Of a stretch of 45,681 nucleotides of DNA, positions 11,430 to 15,415 are shown piece by piece (the first letter of the stretch is position 1; every line of letters starts with the position of its first letter). This DNA is from Pseudanabaena sp. M53BS1SP1A06MG. Its GTDB lineage: Bacteria; Cyanobacteriota; Cyanobacteriia; Pseudanabaenales; Pseudanabaenaceae. Under the pieces are notes generated by a model, which saw only the letters and a program-made list of their open reading frames with translations, was not told the origin of the DNA and made no database searches. The DNA lies in contig JADBWH010000091.1 in NCBI GenBank assembly GCA_020404105.1, forward strand, positions 1-45,681. Direction: 5' to 3'. Both the position numbers and the translations under genes were made by a program.

Positions 11430-12719
11430 ATGGCTCTAGAGCCTTGCACAGAAGTTCCTGCCACCAATATTGATAAGACCACCGATCTCTCCGTACTCAA
11501 AGAACGTGGACAGAGGGAGGTTTTTTGTGGCTTGACGGGGATCGTCTGGCTACATCGCAAAATGCAGGATGCGTTTTTTCTGGTGGTAGGCTCACGTACC
11601 TGCGCCCATTTGATTCAATCTGCGGCTGGAGTAATGATTTTTGCCGAGCCGCGATTTGGTACAGCGATACTTAACGAAAGGGATCTGGCTGGACTGGCTG
11701 ATGCCAATGAAGAGCTAGATCGTGTTGTTGATCAACTATTAGAGCGCCGTCCTGATATTGGTACTCTCTTTTTAGTCGGATCTTGTCCCTCCGAGGTGAT
11801 CAAGCTAGATCTTGGCAAGGCAGCCGAACGCTTGAATCAAAGATTCTTTCCTAAGGTGAGAATTCTCAATTATTCAGGTAGTGGCATCGAAACTACATTC
11901 ACTCAGGGAGAAGATGCTTGTCTGGGATCAATGGTTCCCGTACTGCCGCGTAGTCAAGATGAACCAAGCTTGATGGTGGTAGGTAGCCTTGCGGATGTGG
12001 TGGAAGATCAATTTCAAAGAATATTTGACAAGCTAGGGATTGGACCTGTTTATTTCTTCCCACCCCGCCGTGCAGCCAAATTACCGCCTATTGGTAAAGG
12101 GACAAAATTACTATTGGCTCAGCCTTTTCTTAGTGATACTGTGCGATCGCTCATATCACGTGGGGCAACTTTACTATCATCACCCTATCCTTTTGGCATT
12201 GAAGGTACTACTGCATGGCTAAAAACAGCAGCCGATGCGTGGGGGGTCGATCAGCAAAAATTTGAAGAAGCGATCGCCCCATCAGTCAATCGTGCCAAGA
12301 TTGCCATAGAGCGCTATCGTCAATCACTAACAGGTCGTAAGGTCTTTCTCTTCCCCGATTCACAACTAGAAATTCCTCTAGCGCGTTTCCTTTCAAGAGA
12401 ATGTGGCATGGATCTGGTCGAAGTCGGCACACCATATATTGATCGCCTGTTGATGGACAGTGAAATTAATCTATTACCAATCGGTACGGCTCTTTCGGAA
12501 GGTCAGGACGTGGAAAGACAGCTAGATCGCTGTCGCGCTAACCGACCTGATATTACGGTCTGCGGTCTAGGACTCGCGAACCCCCTCGAAGCTGAAGGCA
12601 TGGCAACAAAATGGTCAATTGAATTAGTCTTTTCACCAATTCACGGTTATGACCAAGCCGCCGATTTAGCAGAGTTATTTGCGCGTCCACTTGAGAGACG
12701 CAGAAGATTAACAGTTTAA
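11430..12719 (+). CDS. chlN: Light-independent protochlorophyllide reductase subunit N, BchN type
   Basis: ChlN forms the catalytic NB tetramer of the dark-operative, nitrogenase-like enzyme that reduces protochlorophyllide ring D. Three cysteine ligands of the [4Fe-4S] cluster are visible: C33 (VFCGL), C58 (RTCAH) and C119 (GSCPSEV). Its 429 residues are shorter than usual cyanobacterial ChlN (about 465). The N-terminal sequence [19 protein letters not shown] and the ends [18 protein letters not shown] match purple-bacterial BchN far better than standard cyanobacterial ChlN, judged from memory. The RBS is strong. chlB follows after 49 bp. Several HIP1 sites occur in the gene, so if it was transferred the event is old. 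Confidence 0.93.
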
Positions 12720-12768
12720 GTAGAGTGTGAAGCAGTCTACTTAAACATATTTTTTATTGATATAACCT

Positions 12769-14451
12769 ATGGAACTAACTCTTTGGACTTACGAAGGTCC
12801 TCCCCATGTGGGAGCGATGCGAATTGCAACTGGTATGGAAGGAGTACATTATGTACTTCATGCGCCGCAGGGCGATACCTATGCCGATCTGCTATTTACG
12901 ATGATCGAACGACGTGATCGCCGTCCACCTGTCACCTATACCACTTTCCAAGCTCGCGATCTTGGTGGTGACACTGCCGAGATGGTCAAGACATCGGTAC
13001 GCGATGCATACGAGCGCTTTCTGCCGCAGGTCATGCTCGTTGGTGAAAGTTGCACAGCCGAACTGATTCAAGATCAACCAGGTTCGTTAGCGAAAGGGAT
13101 GAAGTTACCAATTCCCATTGTTAGCTTGGAATTGCCAGCTTATTCCAAAAAAGAAAATTGGGGTGCAAGTGAAACCCTCTATCACCTAGTTCGCACTTTA
13201 CTTTTACCCCTTGTGCCACCACCGAATACGCATAAACCTAAACGTGAAGCCCATATTCGCCCGAAAGCAAATATCATCGGTCCTACGGCTCTAGGTTTTC
13301 GGTGTCGTGATGATATTCGGGAGGTAGTTAAGTTATTGGCGGAAATCGGTGTCGATGTAAATGTAATCGCACCAATGGGCGCAACTCCCGATGACTTGTT
13401 ACGGATTCCCGATGCCGATTTTAATATTTGTCTCTATCCTGAAATTGCGCTTACTACTTGCAATTGGCTTCATCGCAGTTTCGGACAGCCTACAATTAAG
13501 ACTGTACCGATTGGCGTAGGTGCAACCCGTGACTTTATTGCCGAAATTGGTAAGGTTGCGGAGATTGATGTCAGTGAAGCGCTGAAGCGATCGCAGTCTG
13601 ACACATTGGGCAATTGGGATGTATCGCGCCTATCGTCAGCCAATAATCCTAATGCTTCACGATTGCCTTGGTACTCGAGATCGGTGGATTCCACTTATTT
13701 AACTGGTAAGCGGGTATTCATTTTTGGTGATGCGACCCATGCCCTCGCCGCCGCAAGAATTGCCACCGAGGAGTTAGGATTTACCCTCGTAGGCATTGGC
13801 ACATATAGCCGTGAATTTGCACGTGAAGTGCGTGAAGTTGCTAAAAAGCATGGACTTGAAGCCGTGATTAGTGATGACTATTTAGCTGTGGAAGCCAAGG
13901 TTGCGGAAGCGGCTCCAGAACTAGTGCTGGGTACTCAAATGGAACGCCATATTGCCAAACGTTTGGGTATCCCTTGTGCGGTAATTTCTGCGCCAATCCA
14001 TGTACAAGACGTTCCCGCCCGTTACTCACCGCAAATGGGTTGGGAAGGTGCGAATGTCATTTTTGATAGCTGGGTACATCCTCTGATGATGGGGCTTGAG
14101 GAGCATTTAATTGGCATGTTCCGTGAAGACTTTGAGTTTGCGGAAGGTCATATGAGCCATCTGCATACTGCCCCATCTCAGGATGCACGACGCGAATCAT
14201 TAGTGACATCACAGGTGATCGCCACAACAGGTAGCTCTAACCAAGCTGTCCTCGCACCTGTTGATCAAGCCGTTGTCCAAGCGGTTGATGGCATTACTTG
14301 GAGTGCGGATGGTGAAGCTGAGTTAAAGAAGATTCCCTTCTTTGTCCGCGGCAAAATCAAGCGCAATACTGAGAAGTTTGCGAGCGATCGCGGCATCAGC
14401 ACGATCACTCTCGAAACTCTCTATGAAGCAAAAGCAGCGATCGGCAAATAA
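12769..14451 (+). CDS. chlB: Light-independent protochlorophyllide reductase subunit B, BchB type
   Basis: ChlB is the second subunit of the catalytic NB component. It supplies the unusual aspartate ligand of the [4Fe-4S] cluster, D36, seen here in [10 protein letters not shown]. The N-terminus [19 protein letters not shown] and the stretch [14 protein letters not shown] are of BchB type; standard cyanobacterial ChlB starts with WMYAGPAHIG. Its 560 residues are longer than usual (about 508-525). The extra length lies in loops near residues 270-305 and in a Ser/Ala/Val linker, about 465-505. The linker precedes the C-terminal Pchlide-reductase domain, [20 protein letters not shown]. The gene lies between chlN and chlL in one apparent operon. 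Confidence 0.93.
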
Positions 14452-14454
14452 CTT

Positions 14455-14479
14455 CATTGAGGCGCATAGCGCCTCAATG
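14455..14479 (+). terminator. Intercistronic hairpin between chlB and chlL
   Basis: A perfect 11-bp stem CATTGAGGCGC / GCGCCTCAATG with loop ATA starts 3 bases after the chlB stop and is followed by AATAAAAAATTATTTTT. It could be an attenuator or a 3'-end stabiliser that sets the high ChlL to ChlNB ratio. It may not be a full terminator, because chlL follows at once. Confidence 0.55.
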
Positions 14480-14512
14480 AATAAAAAATTATTTTTACAT
14501 TAGGAGTTTATT

Positions 14513-15415
14513 TTGGTAGTTGCAAACGTTCGTCCCCCCGTTGTGAATAAAGGCGAAGATGGCGAAGGCAGTCTTCAAGTACATCAAGACCCATCGATGG
14601 TGATTGAAGGAGCCTTAGTCATTGCTGTCTATGGCAAAGGCGGCATTGGTAAATCCACCACTTCTTCTAATCTATCGGCAGCATTCTCCCATCTTGGTAA
14701 GCGTGTATTACAAATTGGTTGCGATCCTAAACATGACAGCACCTTCACTCTCACTAAGAGAATGGTTCCTACAGTTATCGACATTCTTGAAACCGTTGAC
14801 TTCCATTCTGAAGAATTACAAACTGATGACTTCATGTTTGAAGGTTATAACGGTGTGATGTGTATCGAGGCAGGTGGTCCTCCCGCAGGAACGGGATGTG
14901 GAGGATATGTCACAGGTCAAACCGTAAAGCTACTCAAAGAACATCATTTGCTTGAAGATACTGATGTGGTCATTTTTGATGTATTAGGTGATGTGGTCTG
15001 TGGAGGATTTGCTGCACCATTACAACATGCCCATTATTGCTTGATCGTGACTGCAAATGACTTTGACTCAATTTTCGCGATGAATCGGATTGTGGCGGCA
15101 ATTCAATCGAAAGCGAAGAACTATCGTGTGCGTCTTGGCGGTATCATTGCTAACCGTAGTGAAGGAACCGATCAGATTGATAAGTTTAACGAGCGTGTAG
15201 GATTGAAGACTCTGGCACATTTCCGAACTGTTGATGCAATCCGTCGCAGTCGTTTGAAAAAATGTACTGTATTTGAAATGGACCCCGAACCAGAGGTTTT
15301 AGCTGTGCAGCAAGAATATCTCAATCTTGCTAAGACGATGTTAGAAAGTGCTGAACCTCTCTACGCTCAACCCCTCAAGGATCGTGATATTTTCGACCTC
15401 CTTGGTTTTGACTAA
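14513..15415 (+). CDS. chlL: Light-independent protochlorophyllide reductase iron protein, BchL type
   Basis: ChlL is the ATP-dependent reductase homodimer, related to nitrogenase NifH, that feeds electrons to ChlNB. The P-loop GKGGIGKST is at residues 41-49. The two cysteines that hold the shared [4Fe-4S] cluster are in PAGTGCGG (about 129) and GDVVCGGF (about 163). The start is TTG, placed 6 bases after AGGAG; an ATG at codon 29 is possible but has no such site. Usual cyanobacterial ChlL begins almost at the P-loop. This one has a 40-residue extension with [11 protein letters not shown], and ends [10 protein letters not shown], both as in BchL. The stop codon lies inside the target duplication of a MITE. 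Confidence 0.94.

Follow-up and report, generated by a model that had tools for sequence, protein, structure and literature searches.

A contig of 45,681 nucleotides from the cyanobacterium Pseudanabaena sp. M53BS1SP1A06MG (JADBWH010000091.1; called the window below, meaning the whole stretch analysed) carries chlN, chlB and chlL consecutively on the plus strand at 11430-15415, all three as open and intact reading frames. They encode the predicted subunits of the dark-operative protochlorophyllide oxidoreductase (DPOR), an oxygen-sensitive, nitrogenase-like enzyme which here sits inside oxygen-making cells. The window is one contig of a 4.63 Mb draft genome (163 contigs, 99.97% complete). A sequence-only reading of the window had proposed that the operon is of the anoxygenic BchN/BchB/BchL type, acquired as a whole in an old transfer that perhaps replaced the native genes.

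11430..12719, plus strand: chlN (BchN type), 429 aa, NB-protein subunit (model match, N tree)
12769..14451, plus strand: chlB (BchB type), 560 aa, NB-protein subunit (model match, B tree)
14513..15415, plus strand: chlL (BchL type), 300 aa, TTG start, ATP-binding iron-sulphur protein (model match, L tree)

The three proteins exceeded the cut-offs of the NCBIfam models DPOR_bchN (TIGR01279; 521.2 bits, cut-off 419.95), DPOR_BchB (TIGR01278; 603.5 bits, cut-off 490.35) and DPOR_bchL (TIGR01281; 441.8 bits, cut-off 345.15), with ChlB falling slightly below the cut-off of a second B model (NF002790; 900.1 against 912). Among proteins of solved structure, the one scoring highest for all three subunits is the enzyme of Prochlorococcus marinus (2YNM; 601.9, 776.2 and 540.1 bits for N, B and L), while 2XDQ, which we take to be the standard cyanobacterial NB protein, scored 255.5 bits (N) and 327.6 bits (B). 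Median identities (N/B/L) were 37/34/53% to five standard cyanobacterial sets (ranges 36-37, 33-36 and 52-54%), 69/66/75% to 32 Proteobacteria, 66/68/83% to 16 picocyanobacteria and 74/70/79% to 16 Gemmatimonadota (up to 76/74% for N/B), with 92/91/94% among 11 Pseudanabaena sequences including the window. The nearest group outside the genus thus differs by subunit, being the picocyanobacteria for ChlL and the Gemmatimonadota for ChlN, with ChlB about level. As judged from these sequences, identities of 37/34/53% to the standard sets are far from chance or ordinary divergence within a family. Models, identities and the N, B and L trees agree that all three subunits are of anoxygenic type, as the sequence-only reading had it.

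Several marks in the proteins point the same way. The 17-letter mark in ChlN and the 16-letter mark in ChlB were found letter for letter, and the gap of about 35 residues claimed for ChlN corresponds to approximately 34 residues missing at one place, standard ChlN residues 13-161 and 200-453 aligning to stretches that lie 12 nt apart. The N-terminal extension of ChlL does contain DGEGSLQVH, but it measures approximately 34-35 residues rather than the 40 first given; a methionine matches the position of its TTG start in two relatives discussed below, M5B4 and the SRR3401482 metagenome-assembled genome (MAG). The C-terminal mark of ChlL is likewise present. A stretch of approximately 10 residues in ChlB (near residue 280) was seen in 6/6 Pseudanabaena-type sequences and in 0/29 of the other sequences shown in the alignment. 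Standard cyanobacterial ChlL-ChlN plus ChlB, which share reaction and subunits with the operon described here, have the extra residues in N, and in the sets examined chlL-chlN and chlB lie at separate places.

The residues needed for activity appear to be in place. Cysteines C33, C58 and C119 of ChlN, presumably the three cluster ligands, are invariant in six aligned sequences; D36 of ChlB is assumed to be a further cluster ligand, D307 corresponds by offset to residue 274 of 3AEK_B, and the P-loop GKGGIGKST is present in ChlL. Three cysteines of BchN act as ligands (PMC7948495, excerpt). Cluster ligands, P-loop and catalytic Asp are hence all kept, with roles assigned partly from the excerpted text of that paper and partly from general knowledge. 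Because the ChlN cysteines, D36 and D307 of ChlB and the P-loop are present, the product of the operon should work as a DPOR. Ratios of nonsynonymous to synonymous substitution rates (dN/dS) were 0.01-0.07 for the three genes over eight genome pairs (within Pseudanabaena, Pseudanabaena against Dolichospermum, and M5B4 against the Pseudanabaena genome G001), with many dS values above 1 and a ninth pair saturated. Purifying selection maintains the operon. Given a GC content of 46.6% (41.6% for the window) and four of the window's 62 HIP1 sites inside it, the operon no longer looks foreign in composition.

Distribution in Pseudanabaena and across the phylum

The genome of the window holds one chlL above the model cut-off, the six other matches of that search reaching at most 35.4 bits. 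Searches of this genome with standard ChlB, ChlN and ChlL gave DPOR-like scores only at the operon in the window (the sole other match of the ChlL query had 33.9 bits), so that no second, standard chlL/chlNB set was found, in line with the proposed replacement of the native genes. A full light-dependent protochlorophyllide oxidoreductase (LPOR) is also encoded (505.5 bits, cut-off 331.35).

A survey of 58 genomes with the ChlN of the window recovered the Pseudanabaena type in its own genome and in 22 of the 24 other Pseudanabaena genomes at 87-94% identity (in G009 as two contig pieces), including Pseudanabaena sp. ULC068bin1 (G010) and ULC187bin1 (G011) and Pseudanabaena mucicola FACHB-723 (G018). 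The two genomes of the genus in which it was not detected are 82% and 76% complete. A DUF554 gene adjoins chlN in 10/14 loci of the genus; it was not found in L295, L296 and L033, and the contig of L292 starts too near chlN. The operon arrived as a unit and, being present genus-wide and mostly at one place, its import is old, as had been suggested.

Five family mates in other genera carry standard ChlN and ChlB (G026, G027, G028 and G030 whole, G034 with partial N and with B in two pieces), and in the rpoB tree the genus groups with G030 (95/99). Neither ChlN nor, at 1e-60, ChlL was found in the family mates G025, G029, G031 and G032; completeness is 74-85% for G029, G031 and G033. The last of these, also from another genus of the family, has a lone 65-residue piece of Pseudanabaena-type chlN (L381:496-690, 86% identical) on a contig of 12,971 bases without other operon parts.

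Across the phylum, an even sample of 386 genomes was searched with ChlB at 1e-80. Matches were obtained in 69 genomes, seven of which had standard-type scores near the threshold. The remaining 62 comprise four of Pseudanabaena, 57 of the picocyanobacterial family (f2) and one outlier, Dolichospermum flos-aquae CCAP 1403/13F. According to our analysis of these sequences, the whole operon is an import into Pseudanabaena and the native set is absent from the genome of the window. This is a known kind of replacement in a new host lineage, genus-wide, with a source likely on the Gemmatimonadota side and probable later onward transfer. Such an import has been published for Synechococcus and Prochlorococcus (PMC7842958; PMC7948495, with P. 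marinus as the exception). No report of an anoxygenic-type DPOR import was found for Pseudanabaena or Dolichospermum in the open-access literature (subscription journals lay mostly outside the search); PMC10156173 refers to a supplementary N-subunit tree for DPOR. Pseudanabaena would be the second cyanobacterial lineage with an imported DPOR, here from a source likely outside the purple bacteria, and its ChlL, ChlN and ChlB cannot serve as vertically inherited markers of early photosynthesis.

Phylogeny and source of the operon

Trees of N, B (quick method only) and L were built from 83 sequences each, five of them standard, the proteobacterial ones coming from the best 80 of 588 relatives plus four plasmids. 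In each, the Pseudanabaena type stands apart from the standard sequences and not among them. A joint tree of 56 sequences and 1232 columns was obtained after removal of 27 of the 83 (5 standard, 6 picocyanobacterial, 14 proteobacterial and 2 Gemmatimonadota); the standard ones were left out because of branches of length 5 on either side. Fourteen Pseudanabaena-type sequences form one group throughout (N 100/100, L 100/99, joint 100/100; B 100 by the Shimodaira-Hasegawa-like approximate likelihood ratio test, SH-aLRT).

From the outside inwards, the joint tree shows Proteobacteria, five Gemmatimonadota (inner group 100/98), nine Gemmatimonadaceae-type sequences (100/99) and, innermost, the picocyanobacteria as sister to Pseudanabaena (97/92). 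The 18 proteobacterial sequences lie outside the group of Gemmatimonadota and cyanobacteria (100/98), a position less clear in the N and B trees taken singly. In the N tree the Pseudanabaena type joins the nine Gemmatimonadaceae-type sequences weakly (86/34); in the B tree the picocyanobacteria stand beside it (88 SH-aLRT). The L tree unites picocyanobacteria, the nine Gemmatimonadaceae-type sequences and Pseudanabaena in a weak group (86/69) that stands separate from Proteobacteria (100/93). The expected likeness to marine Synechococcus and Prochlorococcus was thus recovered in the joint tree, with the N tree alone lacking it, whereas the likeness to purple bacteria was not, as these fall outside.

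Approximately unbiased (AU) tests, for which the clades were named after the trees had been inspected, rejected all 14 Gemmatimonadota as one clade on the joint data (p-AU 0.0006) and weakly rejected the nine Gemmatimonadaceae-type sequences with picocyanobacteria (p-AU 0.027), but not the same nine with Pseudanabaena (p 0.238). The N data by themselves did not reject Pseudanabaena with picocyanobacteria (p 0.186). On the joint tree the cyanobacterial sequences fall inside the Gemmatimonadota, so that an origin in purple bacteria proper is not demonstrated. Purple bacteria were considered as the direct donor and were not borne out, since proteobacterial sequences lie outside on the joint tree; we favour a source on the Gemmatimonadota side, as these alignments suggest.

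The BchLNB-type DPOR of Synechococcus and Prochlorococcus (2YNM) is likewise an anoxygenic-type enzyme in an oxygenic cyanobacterium, with the order N-B-L in many loci, but it belongs to another cyanobacterial family, and the ChlB insert near residue 280 is peculiar to the Pseudanabaena type. Phototrophic Gemmatimonadota (Gemmatimonas and kin) are the nearest non-cyanobacterial relatives by N and B identity and in the joint tree; in the loci examined, however, B and L lie approximately 3.8 kb apart (e.g., L057), a gap consistent with a bchH gene in between, as in annotated purple-bacterial plasmids, whereas in the window L directly follows B. BchL of Rhodobacter sphaeroides (3FWY, 6UYK) shares a DGEGSxQVH tail with the ChlL of the window but scores 463.9 bits against 540.1 for the P. 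marinus protein, and the host of the window is oxygenic and also has LPOR.

In R. sphaeroides this BchL tail is autoinhibitory, and changing it made the enzyme hyperactive (PMC7948495, excerpt). The Asp, Glu, Ser and Gln changed in that study are retained in DGEGSLQVH. The tail is described there, in the part of the text at hand, as not conserved in ChlL, with P. marinus as the exception; Pseudanabaena (DGEGSLQVH) and Dolichospermum CCAP 1403/13F (ESEGSVQVF) are further exceptions. By analogy, we infer that the host has an ATP-gated DPOR.

Carriers outside the genus and competing explanations

The clearest carrier outside Pseudanabaena and the picocyanobacteria is D. flos-aquae CCAP 1403/13F (G153). 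By rpoB it belongs with four genus mates (100/100), yet it has intact Pseudanabaena-type chlN, chlB and chlL in a 5.15 Mb chromosome contig, with 91.0, 90.3 and 92.4% identity to the window and grouped with 10 Pseudanabaena sequences in the joint tree (99/97). The operon is flanked by mnmA and a radical-SAM/DUF3641 gene, which are 6.1 kb apart here but 1.3, 2.2 and 1.5 kb apart in G438, G123 and G291. DNA likeness to Pseudanabaena extends from a block of approximately 78 bp upstream of chlN to just past chlL; because it begins upstream of chlN, the upstream region travelled with the operon. A TnpB gene (OrfB_IS605; L190:11795-13057) lies between chlN and chlB and leaves the three operon frames unbroken; it is 99.0% identical to one on a plasmid of Anabaena cylindrica PCC 7122.

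The native chlB of CCAP 1403/13F is reduced to the last 115 of 514 codons, with a protein 100% identical to that of its genus mate G437. A standard ChlN query matched only the newcomer in this genome, and a standard ChlL query only the newcomer and two short stretches (65 and 43 bits). These NifH/ChlL-like stretches (412678-412812 and 425826-426080 of the chromosome contig, G153:C1) lie approximately 13 kb apart and together cover query residues 15-154; the same two pieces occur in G437 and G100, and G115 has an unbroken stretch over 15-154, a pattern consistent with a nifH gene split by a large element. Among 15 other genomes of the Dolichospermum genus, the Pseudanabaena type was found in 0/15 and full-length native ChlB in 13, with 390 residues at a contig edge in G204 and a broken piece only in G100. 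Native ChlN and ChlL, sought in four of the 15, are present in G437, G115 and G204 and were not found in G100. This last genome, a 530-contig draft, has the chlB piece without the imported operon and so appears to have lost DPOR altogether. The native set can thus be lost without a newcomer, and the order of events in CCAP 1403/13F may have been either. In a cultured strain holding both a new operon and a remnant of the old gene, the benefit of the swap (gating by the L tail, oxygen tolerance, regulation) becomes addressable by comparing close relatives.

Two further carriers are less sure, as they are metagenome-type assemblies. In M5B4 (Cyanobacteria bacterium, G430) rpoB groups with the Pseudanabaena family mate G025 (100/100) and the operon with the Pseudanabaena genome G001 (100/99). 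This operon lies directly after atpA of the ATP synthase genes (L059:5996-9283), with chlN apparently frameshifted at a stretch of seven T. In the SRR3401482 MAG (G429) rpoB groups with G053 of family f20 (100/99), the operon being sister to all others (99/95 for the rest).

We posit a xenologous replacement, to which we assign a probability of about 0.88: an ancestor of Pseudanabaena took up a whole bchNBL-type operon, the native genes were lost, and the operon later moved on. The operon would have come from the pool of Gemmatimonadota and purple bacteria, most likely from the Gemmatimonadaceae side as far as the exact donor can be deduced, and the native chlL-chlN and chlB would then have disappeared. 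In the host, the ATP-loaded L dimer is expected to transfer electrons via its 4Fe-4S cluster to the NB tetramer, where the C17=C18 bond of protochlorophyllide would be reduced in the dark, alongside the light-dependent LPOR. As the L tail covers the cluster until ATP binds in Rhodobacter, the host would probably gain a differently gated DPOR. Together with its upstream block, the operon may later have passed into other cyanobacteria, most clearly into CCAP 1403/13F; the direction of these moves we infer from the sequences.

Whether Pseudanabaena and the picocyanobacterial family go back to one import, with one of them receiving the operon from anoxygenic bacteria and passing it to the other, is for us close to an even bet, falling slightly on the negative side. 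Their sister position in the joint and B trees, the weak rejection of Gemmatimonadaceae with picocyanobacteria and the order N-B-L without an inserted gene, found in many picocyanobacterial loci as in the window (but also in the proteobacterial L097 and L107), argue for it. On the other side, the N tree separates the two, Gemmatimonadaceae with Pseudanabaena were not rejected on the joint data, and a one-residue insertion before GALVIAVYG occurs in all seven picocyanobacterial L sequences shown and in no other sequence shown, the window included. Because the tie of the joint tree is missing from the N tree, the data accommodate one import as well as two. Somewhat less probable, though a serious candidate, is an unsampled proteobacterial donor from which Gemmatimonadaceae and cyanobacteria each received the operon independently. 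This agrees with the literature as far as the excerpts go: the BchLNB import of Synechococcus and Prochlorococcus, like that of Gemmatimonadetes, has been credited to Proteobacteria, with Gemmatimonadetes folded into the proteobacterial clade (PMC7842958), and elsewhere G. phototrophica BchLNB clusters within proteobacteria and a transfer from proteobacteria to picocyanobacteria is listed (PMC7947762). Against it, cyanobacteria lie inside the two Gemmatimonadota layers and a single Gemmatimonadota clade was rejected, though the proteobacterial sequences had been chosen for closeness to the window. We hold a broader version of the replacement to be a shade more doubtful still: a Gemmatimonadota operon, rather than the proteobacterial one published for Synechococcus and Prochlorococcus, as a self-contained unit with its own promoter and an ATP-gated tail, would be the source of all cyanobacterial anoxygenic-type DPOR, repeatedly moving and displacing native genes, with CCAP 1403/13F caught soon after such a swap.

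Old paralogy, with both types in a cyanobacterial ancestor and one of the two lost in each lineage, is very improbable. It would explain the patchy distribution, but that alone; the type is confined to one family, Pseudanabaena and one outlier among the 386 genomes, no genome with two whole sets was seen, CCAP 1403/13F has a decaying native gene beside the newcomer, and the cyanobacterial sequences nest inside the Gemmatimonadota. Contamination or misassembly is more improbable yet. The window does come from a draft, and the assemblies of the M5B4 and SRR3401482 carriers are of metagenome type; for the genus of the window, however, the idea is refuted by the spread of the operon, which includes the single-contig genome G002, and in CCAP 1403/13F the operon lies between native chromosomal genes.

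Several results weigh against the replacement as we have drawn it, or against its proposed source. The N tree sets the picocyanobacteria apart from Pseudanabaena while the B and joint trees place them beside it, and rooting the N, B and L trees on the standard sequences involves very long branches (length 5 to each side). Chlorobi, Chloroflexota, Eremiobacterota, Myxococcota and Heliobacteria are missing from the trees. Taken alone, ChlL has a higher median identity to picocyanobacteria, at 83.2%, than to Gemmatimonadota, at 78.7%; in N, one proteobacterium reaches 73.1%, near the Gemmatimonadota median of 73.6%. Finally, the rpoB tree, in which the bootstrap had yet to converge, does not recover the family as a single clade.

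Upstream block and surroundings

The region that accompanies the operon contains a further feature, delimited by DNA match to Dolichospermum (L190 14640-14718) and an alignment of 18 upstream regions.

11242..11321, plus strand: upstream block, probable promoter/operator

The block holds TCCTGTAAACCTTTGCAACTTTTT at 11244-11267, a 24-mer that is exact in 13 of the 18 regions, and the near-palindrome TTAGTAAATATAGTAA at 11284-11299, whose form TTACTAN4TAGTAA is exact in 11 of the 18 and has one change in the window. Its conservation extends over the genus and Dolichospermum and, in part, to M5B4, but not to the SRR3401482 MAG. Among 379 loci compared, the exact 24-mer occurs in 42 and TTACTAN4TAGTAA in 38, all from Pseudanabaena or, for the 24-mer, Dolichospermum CCAP 1403/13F. 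This conservation suggests that the block is probably a promoter/operator. A sigma-70 scan found nothing upstream of chlN, and an Rfam scan of the operon leader likewise found nothing. When mismatches are permitted, the near-palindrome recurs in the window at 45430-45445 and at two more places (six strand matches against 0.8 expected), and may hence not be particular to the operon. The match at 45430-45445, TTACTATTTATAGTAA, differs by two changes from the near-palindrome of other Pseudanabaena and lies downstream of a pilin-like gene at the contig end.

We also considered a ChlR site upstream of chlN and assigned no regulator; the excerpted part of a review (PMC4500134) gives no binding sequence. 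The same excerpt names PedR as an activator of chlL, chlN and chlB in Synechocystis. Upstream of the operon, beside DUF554, a 6S RNA (62.7 bits; 10073-10260, minus strand) and a tRNA (9922-9995, minus strand) were detected.

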